Origin: Pseudomonas fluorescens
GTDB taxonomy: Bacteria; Pseudomonadota; Gammaproteobacteria; Pseudomonadales; Pseudomonadaceae
NCBI RefSeq assembly: GCF_001902145.1
Contig: NZ_MRST01000018.1
Location: 124,001-188,000 of the forward strand
Reading direction: 5' to 3'
DNA length: 64,000 nucleotides
In this document: in pieces, positions 9,553-63,787 of the stretch
Position numbering within the stretch: position 1 is the first letter of the stretch
Layout: each line of letters starts with the position of its first letter
Notes under the pieces: generated by a model
Databases searched by the model: none
The model's input: the letters and a program-made list of their open reading frames with translations, nothing else
Told to the model about the DNA's origin: nothing
Translations under genes and position numbers: made by a program

Positions 9553-10575
9553 TCAAACAGCTTCAACCTGCAACGCCACCCGTTCGCGGCAAGGGCATTC
9601 ATCCATGTATCGGTGCGCTTCGACGAACTGACTGAACGGAAATACCGTAGTTTTCAGTGGGACAAGCACGCGGTCGGCTGTCAGCTGGTTGATATCGCGC
9701 AACGCACGCTGCAACGCCATATGGTCCTGAATAATGCCCAGCTCCGGCTTGCCGGTGAAGTTGCCGATACAGTGCACAAAGAACTGAATGTTCTTCTGGA
9801 ACGCCGCACAGGCCGGAAATGGCGTCTGGTTGCCACCTTGCAGGCCATACAGCACCAGGCTGCCACGCGGCGCCAGGACGTCACCGAGCAGCGACATCTG
9901 CGGGCCACCCAGGCCATCGAACACCACGTCGACGCCACGGTTGTCCGTGAACTTGTTGATCTGCATCAGCAGGTCTTGTTCTTCGGTAACGATGACCTTT
10001 TCCGCCCCGAGGGACAGCAGGTATTCGCGCTCAGCACTGTCTTTGGTGGCGGCAATCACCCGCACACCCAGGGCCTTGCCCAGTTGCACAAACGAAGGGC
10101 CGGAACAGTGGCTGGCGTCGGTGACCAAGGCAAACTGGCCGGGTTTGACCCGCGCCAGGTCCATGTAGGCAAAGTACGCGATGAGCAACGGCGTGTAGTG
10201 CACGCTGGCTTCAATCGGGCTCAAGACATCCGGGTAGCGGGTCAGGGCCGAACGGGGCAAGACGATCTGCTCGCCATACACCGGGTAATCATTGGGGCTC
10301 TCGGCCGGGAAACTGGCGACTTTATCGCCGACCGCCAAGTCATCCACGCCATCGCCTAAGGCAACCACAACCCCGGCCATTTCATGGCCCAGGCCAGAAG
10401 GCAGCCGTGCATGGGAAGACGCCAGGTTCTGGCGCCACAGAATGTCGTACCAACTGATGCCGATCGCGTCGACACGCACCTGCACTTCGCCCGGTGCGGG
10501 CTGCGCGGCCGCATGCTCTTCGCACTTGAGCACCTCGGCCGGACCAAACTTGTGAAAACGGATCGTGCGGGACAT
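9553..10575 (-). CDS. mexS: MexS-like medium-chain dehydrogenase/quinone oxidoreductase
   Basis: A 340-aa zinc-independent medium-chain oxidoreductase with the N terminus MSRTIRFHKFG and a GroES-like domain followed by a Rossmann domain (about residues 120-270). In P. aeruginosa, MexS lies divergent to mexT and loss of it activates MexT and the MexEF-OprN pump; it is thought to remove an electrophilic or redox signal. The same divergent arrangement is present here. I chose the ATG at 10575, which has GAGG 6 nt upstream, over an in-frame extension of 25 codons. A candidate MexT site lies 77 nt upstream of the start. The pump operon that would normally follow mexT is about 46 kb away. Confidence 0.85.
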   Translation of the reverse strand: MSRTIRFHKFGPAEVLKCEEHAAAQPAPGEVQVRVDAIGISWYDILWRQNLASSHARLPSGLGHEMAGVVVALGDGVDDLAVGDKVASFPAESPNDYPVYGEQIVLPRSALTRYPDVLSPIEASVHYTPLLIAYFAYMDLARVKPGQFALVTDASHCSGPSFVQLGKALGVRVIAATKDSAEREYLLSLGAEKVIVTEEQDLLMQINKFTDNRGVDVVFDGLGGPQMSLLGDVLAPRGSLVLYGLQGGNQTPFPACAAFQKNIQFFVHCIGNFTGKPELGIIQDHMALQRALRDINQLTADRVLVPLKTTVFPFSQFVEAHRYMDECPCRERVALQVEAV

Positions 10576-10652
10576 CGCAAACCTCGTCAAAGTAACCTCT
10601 AATGCCATGAACTTTATCTGGGCTTTGGGGGTAAGACCACCGGTCACCATTA

Positions 10653-10676
10653 ATAGTCGACATGCCTGTCATTGAT
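10653..10676 (-). promoter_or_regulatory. Candidate MexT binding site upstream of mexS
   Basis: Read on the minus strand the site is ATCA-N5-AGGCAT-N4-ACTAT. The MexT consensus, as I recall it, is ATCA-N5-GTCGAT-N4-ACYAT; the two outer blocks and all spacings match, while the centre matches poorly. It ends 77 nt before the mexS start codon, nearly the same distance as the matching site before mexE at 57840-57863. Confidence 0.55.
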
Positions 10677-10844: not shown

Positions 10845-11759
10845 ATGAACCGTAACGACCTGCGTCGTGTCGACCTTAACCTCTTGATCGTATTCGAAAC
10901 CTTGATGCATGAGCGCAGTGTGACCCGCGCCGCCGAGAAATTGTTCCTCGGCCAGCCGGCCATCAGCGCGGCGTTGTCGCGCCTGCGCGGGCTGTTCGAT
11001 GACCCCCTGTTCGTGCGCACCGGGCGCAGCATGGAGCCCTCGGCCCGCGCTGTGGAAATCTTCGCCCTGCTCTCCCCGGCCCTGGACTCGATCTCCACCG
11101 CCGTCAGCCGCGCCGCCGAATTCGACCCGGCCACCAGCACCGCCGTGTTTCGCATTGGCCTGTCCGACGACGTGGAATTCGCCCTGCTCCCGCAGCTGCT
11201 TAAACGCCTGCGCTCCGAAGCCCCCGGCATCGTGCTGGTGGTACGCCGCGTCAATTACATCCTGATGCCCAGCCTGCTTGCCTCCGGCGAAATCTCCATC
11301 GGCGTCAGCTACACCGCCGACCTGCCCGCCAACGCCAAGCGCAAGGTATTGCGCCGCAGCCTGCCCAAACTGCTGCGCGCCGACAGCGTGCCGGGCTCGC
11401 TGAGCCTGGATGACTTTTGCTCACGGCCCCATGCGCTTGTATCCTTTGCCGGTGACTTGAGCGGGTTTATCGATGAAGAGCTGGAAAAACTCGGCCGCAA
11501 GCGCCACGTTGTGCTCGCGGTGCCGCAGTTCAACGGCCTGGGTACGTTGCTGGCCGGTACGGACATTCTGGCCACCGTGCCGGATTATGCAGCTGAGGCG
11601 TTGACCTCGGCGGGTGGGTTGCGTGCAGAAGACCCGCCGTTGCCGGTGCGCTCGTTTGAGCTGCATATGGCGTGGCGGGGTTCGCAGGATAATGACCCGG
11701 GGGAGCGGTGGTTGAGGTCGCGGATTCAGATGTTTTTTGGGGACCCTGAGAGTCTTTAG
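10845..11759 (+). CDS. mexT: LysR-family activator MexT
   Basis: A 304-aa LysR regulator whose sequence agrees closely with what I recall of P. aeruginosa MexT, from MNRNDLRRVDLNLL at the N terminus through RAAEKLFLGQPAISAAL in the helix-turn-helix to RSRIQMFFGDPESL at the C terminus. MexT activates mexEF-oprN and mexS in response to thiol or electrophile stress. The start at 10845 has AGGA 7 nt upstream; a TTG eight codons earlier is in frame but less likely. Unlike in P. aeruginosa, mexE does not follow; an aldo/keto reductase remnant does. Confidence 0.9.
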   Translation: MNRNDLRRVDLNLLIVFETLMHERSVTRAAEKLFLGQPAISAALSRLRGLFDDPLFVRTGRSMEPSARAVEIFALLSPALDSISTAVSRAAEFDPATSTAVFRIGLSDDVEFALLPQLLKRLRSEAPGIVLVVRRVNYILMPSLLASGEISIGVSYTADLPANAKRKVLRRSLPKLLRADSVPGSLSLDDFCSRPHALVSFAGDLSGFIDEELEKLGRKRHVVLAVPQFNGLGTLLAGTDILATVPDYAAEALTSAGGLRAEDPPLPVRSFELHMAWRGSQDNDPGERWLRSRIQMFFGDPESL

Positions 11760-56298: not shown

Positions 56299-57195
56299 AT
56301 GTTCGACCTCAACGAACTCTTCCTGTACGCCAAGGTGGTCGAGCACGGCGGCTTTGCGGCGGCGGGTCGCGCGCTGAACCTGCCAAAATCGACCTTGAGC
56401 CGCAGAGTCAGCCAGCTTGAAGCCAGGCTGGGGGCACGGCTGATACAGCGCTCGACGCGCCAGTTCCAGGTCACCGATATCGGCCAGGCCTATTACCGAC
56501 ATTGCGTGGCGATGATTGCCGAAGCCGAGTCGGCCGAAGATGTGATTGCCTTCAACAAATCAGAGCCGCGCGGCGTGATCCGCTTGAGCTGCACCACCGC
56601 ACTGCTCAACTACTGGGTGGCGCCGATGCTCGCCCAATTCATGGCGCAATGCACCAGCGTCGAACTGAATGTGAAAAGCTTCAACCGCAAGGTCGACATC
56701 ATCAGCGAAGGCTATGACATGGCCTTGAACCTGTGTTTTCCGCCGCTGGAAAGCAGTGAACTGGTCATGAAGGTGCTGGCTAAAAGTCCTCAGGTGCTGG
56801 TAGCAAGCGCGGCTTTTGTGCAGGACGCGCCCCTGCCCCTGCTACCTGCCGACCTTGCAGGGCTGGCGACGATCCATTGGGGCAACCCGTTGCTTCAGTA
56901 CCTGTGGGATCTGACCGGGCCGGACGGCGCGACGGCCCAGGTCACGCACACGCCACGCCTGGTCAGCGATGACATGTCCACCCTGAAAAACGCGGCACTG
57001 GCGGGCGTGGGCATCGCCAACCTGCCGCGGATGGTGGTGCAAGATGAGCTGGCCGATGGACGCCTGATCGTCTTGTTGCCCGAATGGCAACCCACTGAAG
57101 GCGTGATCACCGCCGTGTTCCCCTCCAGACGCGGGCTCATGCCGTCGGTGCGCTCCTTGATCGACTTTCTGGGCGATGCGTTTGATGCGCCGTGA
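56299..57195 (+). CDS. LysR-family transcriptional regulator
   Basis: A 298-aa LysR protein of the DmlR-like branch (MFDLNELFLYAKVVEHGGFA, helix-turn-helix AGRALNLPKSTLSRRVSQLE). It lies 84 nt after the TolC-like gene on the same strand and may regulate that pump. It is next to mexE but is not MexT-like; the MexT homologue is at 10845-11759. Confidence 0.9.
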   Translation: MFDLNELFLYAKVVEHGGFAAAGRALNLPKSTLSRRVSQLEARLGARLIQRSTRQFQVTDIGQAYYRHCVAMIAEAESAEDVIAFNKSEPRGVIRLSCTTALLNYWVAPMLAQFMAQCTSVELNVKSFNRKVDIISEGYDMALNLCFPPLESSELVMKVLAKSPQVLVASAAFVQDAPLPLLPADLAGLATIHWGNPLLQYLWDLTGPDGATAQVTHTPRLVSDDMSTLKNAALAGVGIANLPRMVVQDELADGRLIVLLPEWQPTEGVITAVFPSRRGLMPSVRSLIDFLGDAFDAP

Positions 57196-57217
57196 TTCCC
57201 CACGCCGTGCTGTTAGA

Positions 57218-57737
57218 GCATAGGTATCTACACAACTCTGTAGCGTTCAACGGTAACCACGATGCGAAGCGAGCGGCTCTTGATCTTGATCTTAGGCGCC
57301 CCGTTAAACCACGCTGGCCGGAATTCGACAGGGATTTGGGGGGTAAACCGGCAGGGATGCCGGTTTAGCCGCCCCGCGCCATGGATGGCGCGTGGCGGCG
57401 GCCCCCCAAATCACTGGCGGATTACGGGCACACCGAGCCTAAGCGAGGTGCCGAGTGGTGGGGCAAGAGCGTTTTGCTTACTTTTGCGCTGTTCAAAAGT
57501 GAGCCGCCGTCAGGGCGGAACCCTAAGTGGCCGTTACCGCAGGAATGGATATGTACTCGGTATAACCGTGTCGGCTGTCAGGCCGCCATCGCAGCGATGC
57601 GGCGACCCGACAAGCCAGCTCCCACAGTTTGATCGTGGCGTGTCAGGTAGATAAGCGTTGGCCGTCGGGGCCGTCGCGGGAGCAAGCTCCCTCGCCACAA
57701 GTTCGGCGTCATACCAAAGTTGTGTAGATACCTATGC
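57218..57737. repeat. 520-bp non-coding element bounded by 20-bp inverted repeats
   Basis: GCATAGGTATCTACACAACT at 57218-57237 and its exact reverse complement at 57718-57737 enclose 480 bp. Inside are hairpins at 57345-57366 (AAACCGGCA/TGCCGGTTT) and 57375-57392 (CGCGCCAT/ATGGCGCG), and a REP of the GCGGGAGCAAGCTCCCTCGC type at 57676-57699. No transposase is encoded. It looks like a composite repeat of Pseudomonas fluorescens-group genomes, possibly a non-autonomous mobile element. It fills most of the gap between the LysR gene and mexE. Confidence 0.75.
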
Positions 57738-57839
57738 TGCTAGAGGTCCTTGCACCCTCAGCAACAGTCTTTTGTCATCACTCCCATTGATAGCTCCCTA
57801 ACAAAACCCCCATGCTAGAGGGCTGACTCCGCGCTTATA

Positions 57840-57863
57840 TCATTCCGAATGATAGTTACCTTT
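57840..57863 (+). promoter_or_regulatory. Candidate MexT binding site upstream of mexE
   Basis: ATCA-TTCCG-AATGAT-AGTT-ACCTT fits the MexT consensus architecture ATCA-N5-GTCGAT-N4-ACYAT in the outer blocks (4/4 and 4/5), in GAT at the end of the centre, and in all spacings. It contains a palindrome ATCATTCCGAATGAT. It ends 75 nt before the mexE ATG, as the mexS site does relative to mexS (77 nt). Confidence 0.6.
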
Positions 57864-57938
57864 GCTTCATTCGATTCGTGACCTAGCACCTCCCCGCGCA
57901 TGATCCGCCCATCTCAAATACATTGGCGGATGCACTTC

Positions 57939-59180
57939 ATGGAACAGTCACTCAAACATTTGCGCTTCCCTTTGGCGATATTGGCCGTGGTGGTGATGAG
58001 CGCGTGCGGCAAGACCCCGGAACAAGCGGCCGCCATGCCTCCTGCCAAGGTCAGCGTGGCCAAGGTGCTGGAACAACCGGTCAACGAGTGGGACGAGTTC
58101 ACCGGGCGCCTTGAAGCGCCTGAAACCGTGCAGATTCGTCCGCGGGTGTCCGGGCAGATTGACCAGGTGGCGTTCACCGAAGGCGCGCTGGTGAAGAAAG
58201 GCGACCTGCTGTTCCAGATCGACCCTCGCCCATTCCAGGCCGAAGTGCGTCGCCTCGAAGCCCAACTTGCCCAGACCAAAGCCGCTGCCACCCGCAGTGA
58301 AAACGAAGCGCAACGTGGCGAGCGTCTGCGCCAGAGCAACGCGATATCCGCCGAACTGGCCGACTCGCGCACCACCGCCGCCCAGGAAGCCCGTGCTGCC
58401 ATGGCCGGGATCCAGGCGCAGTTGGACCTGGCCAGGCTGAACCTGAGTTTCACCCGCGTGACGTCGCCCATCAGTGGCCGCGTCAGCCGTGCCGAAATCA
58501 CCGCCGGCAACCTGGTGACCGCCGATACCACTGCGCTCACCAGCGTGGTCTCCACCGACAAGGTCTACGCCTACTTCGACGCCGATGAGCGTGTATTCCT
58601 CAAGTACACCGCTCTGGCCCGGGAAGGCCGCCGTGGCGCAACCACCCCGGTATACCTGGGCCTGTCCAACGAAACCGGCAACCCGCACCTGGGCCAGATG
58701 AACTTCGTCGACAACCAGGTCAACCCGGCCACCGGCACCATCCGTGGCCGTGCGGTGTTCGACAACAGCAAAGGCGAATACACCCCTGGCCTGTATGCGC
58801 GCTTGAAGCTGGTCGGCAGCGGTACCTATTCCGCCGTGTTGATCAACGACGAAGCCGTCGGCACCGACCTGGGCAAGAAATTCGTGCTGGTGATGGACGG
58901 CGACAAGCCGGCTTATCGCGCGGTGGAACTGGGGCCCAAAATCGAAGGCTTGCGTATCGTGCGCAGCGGCCTGACCAAGGACGACACCGTGATCGTCAAG
59001 GGCCTGCAGCGAGCACGCCCAGGCTCACCGGTCGCGCCGGAAACCATCCCGATGGCCAGCAAGGAAACCCTCGCCGCCTTGGCCCAACAACGACAAGCGC
59101 TTGAAGCCAGCAACCTGGAGCAAGTGGCGCCGGAAAAACCCGCGCCCAAGCTCGCAAGCGTCGCGACTCCACGCGGTTAA
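57939..59180 (+). CDS. mexE: RND efflux adaptor MexE
   Basis: A 413-aa periplasmic adaptor lipoprotein; it starts MEQSLKHLRFPL, as I recall for P. aeruginosa MexE, and has a lipobox MSAC near residue 22. The lipoyl domain reads VSGQIDQVAFTEGALVKKGD, the hairpin RQSNAISAELADSRTTAAQE, and the barrel ITAGNLVTADTTALTSVV. MexEF-OprN exports chloramphenicol, fluoroquinolones and quorum-sensing precursors in P. aeruginosa. ATG at 57939 is preferred over an in-frame ATG at 57930. mexF starts 15 nt after its stop. Confidence 0.93.
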   Translation: MEQSLKHLRFPLAILAVVVMSACGKTPEQAAAMPPAKVSVAKVLEQPVNEWDEFTGRLEAPETVQIRPRVSGQIDQVAFTEGALVKKGDLLFQIDPRPFQAEVRRLEAQLAQTKAAATRSENEAQRGERLRQSNAISAELADSRTTAAQEARAAMAGIQAQLDLARLNLSFTRVTSPISGRVSRAEITAGNLVTADTTALTSVVSTDKVYAYFDADERVFLKYTALAREGRRGATTPVYLGLSNETGNPHLGQMNFVDNQVNPATGTIRGRAVFDNSKGEYTPGLYARLKLVGSGTYSAVLINDEAVGTDLGKKFVLVMDGDKPAYRAVELGPKIEGLRIVRSGLTKDDTVIVKGLQRARPGSPVAPETIPMASKETLAALAQQRQALEASNLEQVAPEKPAPKLASVATPRG

Positions 59181-59195
59181 GGGATACGACTCAAG

Positions 59196-62100
59196 ATGAA
59201 TTTTTCCAAGTTCTTCATTTCACGGCCGATCTTCGCAGCGGTGCTGTCGCTGTTGATCCTGATCGCCGGCGCAATCTCGCTGTTCCAACTGCCGATCAGC
59301 GAATACCCGGAAGTGGTGCCGCCGACCGTGGTAGTGCGCGCCAACTTCCCGGGCGCCAACCCCAAAGTCATCGGTGAAACCGTGGCCGCGCCGCTGGAGC
59401 AAGCCATCACCGGTGTCGAGAACATGCTGTACATGTCCTCGCAGTCCACCGCCGACGGCAAGCTGACCCTTACCATCACCTTCGCCCTGGGCACCGACCT
59501 GGACAACGCGCAGGTGCAGGTGCAAAACCGTGTGACACGCACCCAGCCCAAGCTGCCGGAGGAAGTGACGCGCATCGGTATTACCGTGGACAAGGCCTCC
59601 CCCGACCTGACCATGGTGGTGCACTTGACCTCCCCGGATCAGCGCTACGACATGTTGTACCTGTCCAACTACGCGATCCTCAATATCAAGGATGAGCTGG
59701 CCCGCCTTGGCGGCGTTGGTGACGTGCAGCTGTTCGGCATGGGCGACTACTCGTTGCGGGTCTGGCTCGACCCGAACAAAACCGCTTCGCGCAACCTAAC
59801 GGCGACCGATGTGGTCACGGCGATCCGCGAGCAGAACCGCCAGGTGGCAGCCGGTGCCCTGGGCGCCCAACCTGCGCCGAGTGACACCAGCTTCCAGTTG
59901 TCGGTCAATACCCAAGGCCGCCTGGTCACCGAGGAAGAGTTCGAGAACATTGTGGTTCGCGCCGGTGCCAACGGTGAAATCACGCGCCTCAAAGACATCG
60001 CTCGGGTCGAGCTGGGCTCCAGCCAATACGCGCTGCGCTCGCTGATCGATAACCAGCCTGCCGTTGCGATTCCGATTTTCCAGCGTCCCGGCTCCAATGC
60101 CATCGACATCTCCAACGATGTGCGCAGCAAGATGGCCGAGCTGAAAAAGAGCTTCCCAGCGGGCATGGATTACCGCATCGCCTATGACCCGACCATCTTT
60201 GTACGCGGTTCCATCGAAGCGGTGGTGCACACGCTGTTCGAAGCACTGATCCTCGTGGTGCTGGTGGTGATCCTGTTCCTGCAGACCTGGCGCGCCTCGA
60301 TCATCCCCTTGGTGGCGGTGCCGGTATCGTTGATCGGTACATTTGCGGTGATGCACCTGTTCGGGTTCTCACTCAATGCCCTGTCATTGTTCGGCCTGGT
60401 GTTGGCCATCGGTATCGTCGTGGACGACGCCATCGTGGTGGTGGAGAACGTCGAGCGTAATATCGAGCTGGGCCTGGAACCCTTCCCGGCGACCGAAAAA
60501 GCCATGAGTGAGGTGACCGGCCCGATCATCGCCACGGCGCTGGTGCTGTGTGCGGTGTTCATTCCGGCCGCCTTCATCAGCGGCTTGACCGGGCAGTTCT
60601 ATAAGCAGTTCGCCTTGACCATCGCGATTTCAACCGTGATCTCGGCGTTCAACTCCCTGACCCTGTCCCCTGCCCTGGCCGCTGTGTTGCTGCGCGGTCA
60701 CGACGCGCCGAAGGACCGTTTCTCGAAGTTCCTCGACAAGATCTTCGGTGGCTGGCTGTTCCGTCCCTTCAACCGCTTTTTCGAAAAAGCCAGCCATGGC
60801 TATGTAGGCACCGTACGCCGAGTGATTCGCGGCAGCGGTATCGCCTTGTTCGTATACGCTGGCTTGATGGTGCTGACGTTCTTCGGCTTTGCCCACACGC
60901 CGACCGGTTTCGTACCGGCCCAGGACAAGCAATACCTGGTGGCCTTCGCTCAACTGCCCGACGCCGCGAGCCTGGACCGCACCGAAAACGTGATGAAGCG
61001 CATGTCGGAGATCGCCCTGAAACAACCCGGCGTGGAAGCTGCGATTGCCTTCCCGGGCCTGTCGATCAACGGGTTCACCAACAGCCCGAACAGCGGCATC
61101 GTGTTCGTGACCTTGAAGCCCTTTGACGAGCGTAAAGACCCGAGCATGTCCGCCGGGGCAATTGCCGGTGCACTGAACGGCCAATACGCCAATATCGAAG
61201 AAGCCTACATGGCGATCTTCCCGCCGCCGCCGGTACAAGGCCTGGGCACCATCGGCGGCTTCCGACTGCAGATCGAAGACCGTGGCAACCTCGGCTATGA
61301 CGAGCTGTATAAAGAAGTGCAGAACGTGATTGCCAAGAGTCACAGCGTGCCTGAACTGTTCGGCCTGTTCACCAGCTACACCGTGAACGTGCCGCAAGTC
61401 GACGCCGCCATCGACCGCGAAAAAGCCAAGACCCACGGCGTGGCGATCAGCGACATCTTCGACACCCTGCAGGTCTACCTGGGCTCGTTGTATGCCAACG
61501 ACTTCAACCGCTTCGGGCGTACCTACCAGGTCAACGTGCAGGCCGAGCAACAGTTCCGCCAGGACTCCGACCAGATCGGCCAGTTGAAAGTACGCAACAA
61601 CAAAGGCGAGATGATCCCGCTGGCGACCTTTATCAAGGTCAGCGACACCTCGGGCCCGGATCGCGTGATGCACTACAACGGCTTCATCACCGCAGAAATC
61701 AACGGCAACGCCGCACCGGGCTACAGCTCTGGCCAGGCCCAGGCCGCGATTGAAAAACTGCTCAAGGATGAACTGCCCAACGGCATGACCTACGAGTGGA
61801 CCGACCTGACGTATCAGCAAATCCTCTCGGGCAATACCGCGCTGTTCGTGTTCCCGCTCTGCGTGCTGCTGGCGTTCCTGGTACTCGCCGCCCAATACGA
61901 AAGCTGGAGCCTGCCACTGGCGGTAATCCTGATCGTACCGATGACGCTGCTGTCAGCCATTACCGGGGTGATCATCTCGGGCGGCGACAACAACATCTTC
62001 ACCCAGATCGGCCTGATCGTACTGGTGGGCCTGGCGTGCAAGAACGCGATTCTGATCGTCGAGTTCGCCAAGGATAAACAGCAGGAAGGCCTCGACCCGC

Positions 62101-62375
62101 TCGCCGCGGTACTGGAAGCCTGCCGCCTGCGTCTGCGGCCGATCCTGATGACCTCCTTCGCGTTCATCATGGGTGTGGTGCCACTGGTGCTCTCCAGCGG
62201 TGCCGGTGCCGAGATGCGCCATGCCATGGGCGTGGCGGTGTTCTCCGGGATGATCGGTGTGACCTTCTTCGGTCTGTTGCTGACACCAGTGTTCTACGTA
62301 CTGATCCGTCGCTATGTCGAGCGCAGTGAAGCGCGCAAAGCGGCCAAGGCCTTGAAGCTGGAGACACAGCAATGA
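59196..62375 (+). CDS. mexF: RND efflux transporter MexF
   Basis: A 1059-aa inner-membrane proton/drug antiporter of the HAE1 RND family with 12 helices and two large periplasmic loops. The proton-relay residues are Asp410-Asp411 (GIVVDDAIVVVENVE) in helix 4 and Lys949 (GLACKNAILIVEFAK) in helix 10. The N terminus NFSKFFISRPIFAAVLSLL is typical of MexF. It works with MexE and OprN; the stop overlaps oprN by 4 nt. Confidence 0.96.
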   Translation: MNFSKFFISRPIFAAVLSLLILIAGAISLFQLPISEYPEVVPPTVVVRANFPGANPKVIGETVAAPLEQAITGVENMLYMSSQSTADGKLTLTITFALGTDLDNAQVQVQNRVTRTQPKLPEEVTRIGITVDKASPDLTMVVHLTSPDQRYDMLYLSNYAILNIKDELARLGGVGDVQLFGMGDYSLRVWLDPNKTASRNLTATDVVTAIREQNRQVAAGALGAQPAPSDTSFQLSVNTQGRLVTEEEFENIVVRAGANGEITRLKDIARVELGSSQYALRSLIDNQPAVAIPIFQRPGSNAIDISNDVRSKMAELKKSFPAGMDYRIAYDPTIFVRGSIEAVVHTLFEALILVVLVVILFLQTWRASIIPLVAVPVSLIGTFAVMHLFGFSLNALSLFGLVLAIGIVVDDAIVVVENVERNIELGLEPFPATEKAMSEVTGPIIATALVLCAVFIPAAFISGLTGQFYKQFALTIAISTVISAFNSLTLSPALAAVLLRGHDAPKDRFSKFLDKIFGGWLFRPFNRFFEKASHGYVGTVRRVIRGSGIALFVYAGLMVLTFFGFAHTPTGFVPAQDKQYLVAFAQLPDAASLDRTENVMKRMSEIALKQPGVEAAIAFPGLSINGFTNSPNSGIVFVTLKPFDERKDPSMSAGAIAGALNGQYANIEEAYMAIFPPPPVQGLGTIGGFRLQIEDRGNLGYDELYKEVQNVIAKSHSVPELFGLFTSYTVNVPQVDAAIDREKAKTHGVAISDIFDTLQVYLGSLYANDFNRFGRTYQVNVQAEQQFRQDSDQIGQLKVRNNKGEMIPLATFIKVSDTSGPDRVMHYNGFITAEINGNAAPGYSSGQAQAAIEKLLKDELPNGMTYEWTDLTYQQILSGNTALFVFPLCVLLAFLVLAAQYESWSLPLAVILIVPMTLLSAITGVIISGGDNNIFTQIGLIVLVGLACKNAILIVEFAKDKQQEGLDPLAAVLEACRLRLRPILMTSFAFIMGVVPLVLSSGAGAEMRHAMGVAVFSGMIGVTFFGLLLTPVFYVLIRRYVERSEARKAAKALKLETQQ

Positions 62376-63787
62376 GTGTGAAAGTATTCCTGCCGAGCCT
62401 GTTGGTGCTGGCGCTCGCCGCCTGCGCCGTAGGCCCGGACTACAAGACCCAGCAACTGGAGGCGGCCAATATCACGGCCGCCGCCGACACCAAGAGCTAC
62501 GACCATGCCAAATACGAAGGTATCTGGTGGCAGCAGTTCGAGGATCCGACCCTCAACCAACTGGTCACCCAGTCCCTGAGCGGCAACCGTGACCTGCGCG
62601 TAGCCTTTGCCCGCCTGCGGGCGGCACGGGCCATCCGTGATGATGCGGCCAACGACATCATGCCGGTGGTCACCTCCCGCGCCAGCAGCGATGTGGGCAA
62701 GGGCCAGATTCCCGGCCAGACCACCAGACGCGTCAACAGCGAGCGCTACGACCTGGGCCTGGACATGGCCTGGGAAGTGGATTTGTTCGGGCGCATCCGC
62801 CGCAACCTGGAAGCCAGCGACGCCGACCAACAGGTGGCCGAAGCCGACCTGTACCAACTGCAAGTCACCATGATTGCCGAGTTGGTAGATGCCTACGGCC
62901 AACTGCGCGGGGCGCAACTGCGTGAACGCATCGCCCTCGACAACCTGAAGAACCAGCAGGAATCTCGCACCATCACCGTCAGCCTGCGCGATGCCGGCGT
63001 GGGCGATCAGCTCGACGTGGAACGTGCCGACGCGCGCCTGGCGGCGGTGGAAGCCAGCGTGCCGCAACTGCAGGCCGAACAAGTGCGCGAGCGCAACCGC
63101 ATCGCCACCCTCCTCGGCCAGCGCCCGGACAAGCTGAGCGTTGACCTGAGCCCCAAAGACCTGCCGGCAATCGCCAAGGCGTTGCCGATTGGCGACCCGG
63201 GCCAACTGCTGCAACGACGCCCGGACATCCTCAGCGCCGAACGCAAACTGGCCGCCGCCACCGCACGTATCGGCGTGGCCAAGGCCGACCTGTTCCCACG
63301 GGTGAGCCTCAGCGGTTTCCTCGGCTTCACCGCCGGGCGCGGCTCGCAGATCGGCTCGGCCGCAGCGAATGCCTGGTCCCTGGGCCCGAGCATTACCTGG
63401 GCCGCGTTCGATCTGGGCAGCGTGCGTGCGCGGTTGCGCGGTGCGAATGCCGAGGCCGACGGCGCCCTGGCAACCTACGAGCAGCAAGTGCTGCTGGCCC
63501 TGGAAGAGTCCGAGAATGCCTTCAGCGACTACGGCAAGCGCCAGCAACGTTTGGTCTCGCTGATCCGCCAAAGCGAATCCAGCCGCGCCGCCGCCGACCT
63601 CGCGGCGATCCGCTACCGCGAAGGCACCGTGGACTTCCTGGTGCTGCTCGACGCCCAGCGCGAACGCCTGGCCGCCGAAGATTCCCAGGCGCAGGCCGAA
63701 GTGGACCTGTATCGCGGGATAGTGGCGATCTACAAGGCGCTGGGTGGTGGCTGGCAGCCGGATACGGTGGTTGCCAGCAGCAAGTGA
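62372..63787 (+). CDS. oprN: RND outer-membrane factor OprN (NodT family)
   Basis: A 471-aa outer-membrane channel lipoprotein of the NodT family, with a lipobox LAAC near residue 17 (CAVGPDY follows). Family marks are WWQQFEDPTLNQLV, YDLGLDMAWEVDLFGRIRRN and LLQRRPDILSAERKLAAATA. It completes the MexEF-OprN pump. A strong terminator follows. Confidence 0.94.
   Translation: MSVKVFLPSLLVLALAACAVGPDYKTQQLEAANITAAADTKSYDHAKYEGIWWQQFEDPTLNQLVTQSLSGNRDLRVAFARLRAARAIRDDAANDIMPVVTSRASSDVGKGQIPGQTTRRVNSERYDLGLDMAWEVDLFGRIRRNLEASDADQQVAEADLYQLQVTMIAELVDAYGQLRGAQLRERIALDNLKNQQESRTITVSLRDAGVGDQLDVERADARLAAVEASVPQLQAEQVRERNRIATLLGQRPDKLSVDLSPKDLPAIAKALPIGDPGQLLQRRPDILSAERKLAAATARIGVAKADLFPRVSLSGFLGFTAGRGSQIGSAAANAWSLGPSITWAAFDLGSVRARLRGANAEADGALATYEQQVLLALEESENAFSDYGKRQQRLVSLIRQSESSRAAADLAAIRYREGTVDFLVLLDAQRERLAAEDSQAQAEVDLYRGIVAIYKALGGGWQPDTVVASSK

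Follow-up and report, generated by a model that had tools for sequence, protein, structure and literature searches.

Conserved boxes before mexE and mexS, very probably recognised by a distant MexT, share one promoter layout in Pseudomonas

MexT activates the pump genes mexEF-oprN and, in Pseudomonas aeruginosa, also mexS, and loss of mexS raises mexEF-oprN (PMC12607905 and PMC7697342). ChIP-seq has been reported for that species (PMC6610081). In P. poae MexT controls mexEF-oprN with mexT 300 kb away, and the same source describes the nod box of mexS as found in P. poae but as not identified in P. aeruginosa (PMC11432991). For P. putida KT2440, where the genes are also far apart, earlier work is cited for MexT stimulating mexEF-oprN (PMC7697342). 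Does MexT exert such control in a P. fluorescens genome where regulator and pump are separated by 46 kb and, if so, through what sequence? The window, i.e., the whole stretch of 64,000 nucleotides that was analysed, contains the following genes.

9553–10575, minus strand: mexS, for a quinone-oxidoreductase / zinc-alcohol-dehydrogenase-like protein, divergent from mexT and named by its place beside it
10845–11759, plus strand: mexT, for a full-length LysR-type regulator of 304 aa, scoring 385 bits against the solved MexT domain 6l33
56299–57195, plus strand: a LysR gene directly upstream of mexE, ending about 640 bp before the mexE box
57939–59180, plus strand: mexE, RND pump periplasmic adaptor (NCBIfam NF045904, 742 bits, cut-off 714)
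59196–62375, plus strand: mexF, RND permease (subfamily model)
62372–63787, plus strand: oprN, outer-membrane channel (subfamily model)

The pump is mexEF-oprN by its mexE equivalog, which is above the curated cut-off and is followed by mexF and oprN in that order, and the regulator, 83% identical to 6l33 over 209 aa and divergent from mexS, is the orthologue of P. aeruginosa MexT. Every NCBIfam match of the mexS protein was under its cut-off. The start codons taken were the ATG at 57939 for mexE (MEQSL...) and that at 10575 on the minus strand for mexS (MSRTI...), longer frames existing for these genes. The sites upstream of them with which this work is concerned are three.

57839–57862, plus strand: proximal MexT-type box of mexE, ATCATTCCGAATGAT-AGTT-ACCTT, its first 15 bp matching ATYA-N7-YGAT
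57777–57791, plus strand: distal second mexE box, ATCACTCCCATTGAT, also ATYA-N7-YGAT, starting 62 bp upstream of the proximal box
10653–10676, minus strand: MexT-type box of mexS, ATCAATGACAGGCAT-GTCG-ACTAT, with GCAT in place of YGAT as the second half-site

An earlier note, made from the letters of the window, had placed boxes at 57840–57863 and at 10653–10676 on the minus strand, 75 and 77 nt from the respective ATGs. Both sequences are indeed present, in full ATCATTCCGAATGATAGTTACCTT at 57839–57862 (plus) and ATCAATGACAGGCATGTCGACTAT at 10653–10676 (minus); the position and the 77 nt gap given for mexS were right, and those for mexE carried a 1-bp slip, the gap measured there being 76 nt. 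Counted from where the box begins, the ATG is 100 nt away at mexE and 101 nt away at mexS; 47 kb lie between the two boxes. The note had the proximal box of the mexE promoter and passed over the second one at 57777–57791. The consensus it gives, ATCA-N5-GTCGAT-N4-ACYAT, has to be set aside for these two sites, neither of which fits even with up to three mismatches allowed; the GTCGAT centre is absent from both, and the flanks ATCA...ACYWT are retained at both. Two other descriptions were used instead, namely the core ATYA-N7-YGAT, which is the MexT nod-box consensus as quoted in PMC11432991, and a 24-bp form, ATCA-N9-AT-N4-ACYWT, derived here from the mexE and mexS sites. The core is found in the mexE promoter at 57839 and 57777. 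Due to its GCAT second half the mexS site fails the core and is classed as a MexT-like variant site, not a standard nod box. T-N11-A, expected of a LysR recognition site, can be read in the mexE and in the mexS box (T2, A14).

How much weight can the likeness of the two boxes to each other bear? The loose pattern from which the note started, ATCA-N15-AC[CT][AT]T, has five matches in the 64 kb against 0.93 expected, a number that none of 100 shuffles reached; three of the five sit away from the mexE and mexS boxes, and so the loose pattern by itself singles out nothing. When mexS promoters are scored with a weight matrix made from the mexE boxes, the mexS site comes top in 68 of 94; however, 312 of 1000 shuffles of the window's own mexS promoter equal or beat that site, and therefore the mexS box could not have been recognised by its resemblance to the mexE box alone. 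The raw resemblance of the two is weak and not significant. Since the loose pattern matches five places in the 64 kb, the boxes have few bases in common and detection of the mexS site by a mexE matrix is not significant, one might take the match for a coincidence. What does go beyond chance is conservation, position and the whole-genome pattern count. Conservation tied to position across 99 genomes, and equal spacing to a -10-like element at both promoters, make coincidence scarcely credible. A sequence-only model, R1, built from 32 boxes with the mexE and mexS window sites among its training set, has those two as its best matches in the window (mexE best) and the distal mexE box as its third.

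The genomes sampled were 99 from Pseudomonas, this one included, mexE and mexT each being matched in all 99; the best mexE match per genome was used, five genomes with extra mexE-like matches contributing their best only. ATYA-N7-YGAT is present 97–112 bp upstream of mexE in 97 of the 99 (for G001, which has two overlapping cores, that at -101 was used), and the remaining two promoters, of G041 and G063, have one-base variants of the core. The 24-bp form occurs there with no mismatch in 80 genomes, one in 12, two in five and three in two, as against 979 control windows from the same mexE promoters, among which none was free of mismatches and five had one. Distance between regulator and pump leaves the core in place: it is there in 20 of the 21 genomes whose mexT is less than 1 kb from mexE, in 19 of 20 at 1–10 kb, in 29 of 29 at 10–150 kb, in all 13 with mexT on the same contig but further off or in some other arrangement, and in all 16 with the two genes on different contigs, which, the assemblies being drafts, does not imply distance. 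The distal box is a less general feature. Exactly 62 bp upstream of the proximal box it is found strictly in 29, and with at most one mismatch in 34, of the 96 mexE promoters that reach that far, matches at each of the other offsets from -110 to -21 numbering two at most.

Would the regulator next door not be a more natural owner of the mexE box? The LysR gene at 56299–57195 is the nearest one, is of the right type and is on the mexE strand, and on its position it could be held to control the pump. Its occurrence is hard to reconcile with that, as a close relative (E 1e-120) is present in only three of the 99 genomes, this one included, versus the box core in 97, and of the other two carriers, G032 has it about 500 kb away from mexE and G027 on a different contig. 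On this distribution the adjacent gene was rejected as the true regulator, a role that it is exceedingly unlikely to have, and it is probably a recent arrival in the mexT–mexE interval. Where mexT and mexE share a contig, in 70 of 83 cases the two are on the same strand, with mexT upstream and no more than 150 kb from mexE, and an ancestral mexT–mexE pair may have been separated by insertions. Control of the pump by the distant MexT, as the earlier note proposed, is supported by the 97 of 99 cores and by their retention at every mexT–mexE distance.

For mexS, regions upstream of mexT were taken from 98 of the 99 genomes, G076 being omitted for its incomplete mexT, and 94 of these gave a recognisable mexS start. 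In the other four, G068, G085, G022 and G050 (L252, L255, L257 and L263), none was recognised by the threshold used beside mexT within about 500 bp. The 24-bp form is present at -98 to -112 in 93 of the 94 promoters, 74 times without a mismatch and 19 times with one, G075 being the one promoter of the 94 without such a box. The note had named poor conservation in orthologous promoters as what would tell against it, and by this figure, together with that for the mexE core, its proposal came through that check. At named loci, which are the best 80 MexT relatives listed, the mexS box is free of mismatches in 78 and has a single one in two. The column consensus of the mexS promoters, GGCATG, gives GCAT as the second half-site in contrast to YGAT of the published consensus, and strict ATYA-N7-YGAT on the mexS strand is found in none of the 94. 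No second box is seen at mexS in the conserved columns of the aligned promoters. In G052 the mexT match (L272) begins at query residue 33 and the mexS box is intact, a possible natural mexT lesion or an assembly error.

Other contigs of the genome encode two paralogues of MexT with identities to it of 69% and 58%, and their DNA-binding domains agree with that of MexT at 51 and 49 residues among the first 70. Regulators so alike in the same genome could bind the same DNA, and the question arises of whether one of them, and not MexT, occupies or shares one or both boxes. However, the closer paralogue is matched at E 1e-145 in 58 of the 99 genomes, versus MexT at E 1e-140 in all 99, and in the 41 genomes with no closer-paralogue match the boxes persist: 40 of the 41 have the strict mexE core, and of the 40 whose mexS start was recognised, 39 carry the mexS box with one mismatch or none. 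In addition, ATYA-N7-YGAT is absent from the 350 bp upstream of either paralogue, and it is MexT that published work names (PMC11432991, PMC7697342 and PMC12607905). A paralogue as universal binder is weakened by its distribution and by box retention where the closer one has no match, and participation of either at the boxes is quite improbable. To judge from these comparisons of sequence, both boxes are very probably MexT recognition sites through which the distant MexT drives the pump and mexS.

Beyond the boxes themselves, the two promoters have further elements at matching distances.

57870–57879, plus strand: conserved TTCGATTCGT, +31 to +40 from the start of the mexE box, by column conservation in 97 promoters
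57899–57904, plus strand: -10-like hexamer CATGAT of mexE (consensus of relatives CATAAT), +60 from the box start
10611–10616, minus strand: -10-like hexamer TAAAGT of mexS, +60 from the box start

When mexE promoters are aligned on the box, a block is kept up to +40 and ends in TTCGATTCGT, a candidate LysR activation site or -35 region. Among offsets 45–79, offset 60 has the top mean match to TATAAT both at mexE (3.31 of 6 in 97 promoters, which are related sequences and not independent) and at mexS (3.99 of 6 in 74 anchored promoters). Given the -10-like hexamer at +60, and a start assumed to be about 12 bp after that hexamer begins, the box core would be centred near -65. LysR activators usually bind near -65. 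A search for a sigma-70 consensus promoter in 57195–57945 gave none, which is uninformative either way as shuffles average just 0.4.

Are these two promoters all that MexT has in this genome? In its 5.97 Mb the 24-bp form has nine matches, both boxes included, versus one for a reversed control, and three of the nine are at the expected distance before genes, those at mexE, at mexS and on contig C22.

C22:519370–519393: third box, 108 bp before the gene of a 106-aa protein
G000:C22:518968–519285: small exported protein of 106 aa (MKRQLLATVL..., signal-like start)

The C22 site is also inside a 183-codon frame that runs on into the small-protein gene (the locus as a whole, G000:C22:518968–519393, is L291 and L302). 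The six other matches were rejected, five being in stop-free frames of at least 150 codons and the sixth (L290) having short downstream frames only. Relatives of the small protein at E 1e-8 are found in 62 of the 99 genomes, and in their promoters (best match per genome, a weaker second copy in G090 being omitted) ATYA-N7-YGAT is present at -106 to -110 strictly in 61 and with one mismatch in the other, and the 24-bp form with no mismatch in 57, one in four and two in one. The long consensus given in the note is matched exactly in eight of the 62. No Pfam or NCBIfam family is above cut-off for the protein, and a limited check did not find it among MexT targets in the portions of the literature covered. 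From its promoter this small exported protein is likely a MexT target that had not been assigned before. In the genome as a whole model R1 lists the mexE site, the C22 site, a site in an alcohol-dehydrogenase frame and, fourth at E 4.4, the mexS site, with E-values of 0.23 to 4.4 when 150 of 2414 first-look candidates were scored, and so is weak by itself; the third of these, C27:100650, was rejected as a further site due to its place inside that frame. Elsewhere pattern matches and controls number 7 versus 2 in G017 and 11 versus 1 in G084. In the latter four more boxes (L362, L374, L375 and L376) are 101–106 bp before small candidate genes, the repeat protein of L376, with its box at -106, matching the PtrA N-terminal model above cut-off. 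The G084 boxes suggest what may be a larger regulon of small proteins.

For this strain we infer binding by its MexT, a transcription start, an oligomer geometry and feedback that would work together as follows. MexT (10845–11759), as a LysR-type activator, would recognise both 24-bp elements, and an oligomer of it, bound at the box with its centre some 65 bp upstream of the transcription start, would touch the conserved -35 region, the putative activation site, and bring RNA polymerase to a weak promoter, the -10 of which begins a fixed 60 bp from the start of the box. MexT being diffusible, mexS beside mexT and mexEF-oprN 46 kb away would therefore answer to one signal. With mexS raised by MexT, and its product damping MexT activity, a negative feedback loop would be set around the pump. 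The fixed spacing of box and promoter, along with similar short leaders, would account for the equal box-to-ATG distances at mexE and mexS, and the other putative sites have the same layout as those two. A wider reading, of a genus-wide core MexT regulon with one blueprint (box about 100–110 bp before the start codon and -10 at +60), the small exported protein as its third conserved target and the GCAT variant half-site of mexS tuning the feedback arm apart from the pump, is one towards which we lean with some reserve. Since the pump operator is intact genus-wide whatever the distance to mexT, linkage of regulator and pump would be unnecessary for control. The layout is usable for predicting MexT targets.

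How do the known systems compare? P. aeruginosa, as represented by G222, has a MexT domain identical to 6l33 at 208 of 209 residues. Its genes are orthologous to those here, with the mexE core at -102 and the mexS box, ATCACTGACAGGCATAGCCATTAT, at -114 with one mismatch to the 24-bp form; in a PAO1 mexT knockout mexS (PA2491) goes down, the log2 values being -6.3 for mexE, -2.2 for mexS and -3.8 for pyeR (PMC12607905). In contrast to the arrangement here, mexT adjoins mexE there, the mexE site has AAAAT in place of ACYWT and thus two mismatches to the 24-bp form, and the sequence at -62 does not fit a distal box. In G222 the 24-bp pattern has seven matches versus none for controls, all seven within stop-free frames of at least 150 codons, such frames being common in GC-rich DNA. 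With start codons chosen by the analyst, one of the seven precedes a small lipoprotein-like frame by 102 bp, another an ArsR gene by 105 bp and a third a 39-codon frame by 110 bp. The ArsR gene is likely pyeR, which is known to be the ArsR gene PA4354 (PMC7950407). For the small exported protein there is no clear homologue in this one P. aeruginosa genome, the best E being 0.285.

The motif from MexT ChIP-seq in P. syringae, ATN11AT, is a 15-bp core with AT at each end, as in both boxes here, but it is shorter and looser and is common to 11 regulators (PMC11957545). In P. putida KT2440 regulator and pump are unlinked, as here, and altered mexS raises mexEF-oprN (PMC7697342). A further close system is P. 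poae PMA22, in which mexT and mexS are together, mexEF-oprN is distant and nod boxes are reported in both promoters, though the distance is 300 kb instead of 46 kb and MexT also runs the safracin gene cluster there (PMC11432991); at a locus of P. poae DSM 14936 (L076) the mexS box is identical to that of the window. MexT control of an unlinked mexEF-oprN is thus already reported, in P. poae (PMC11432991) and P. putida (PMC7697342). What is added here is a common promoter layout, a candidate third target and a defined, conserved mexS site, the counterpart of the one that a paper cited above calls not identified in P. aeruginosa (PMC11432991).
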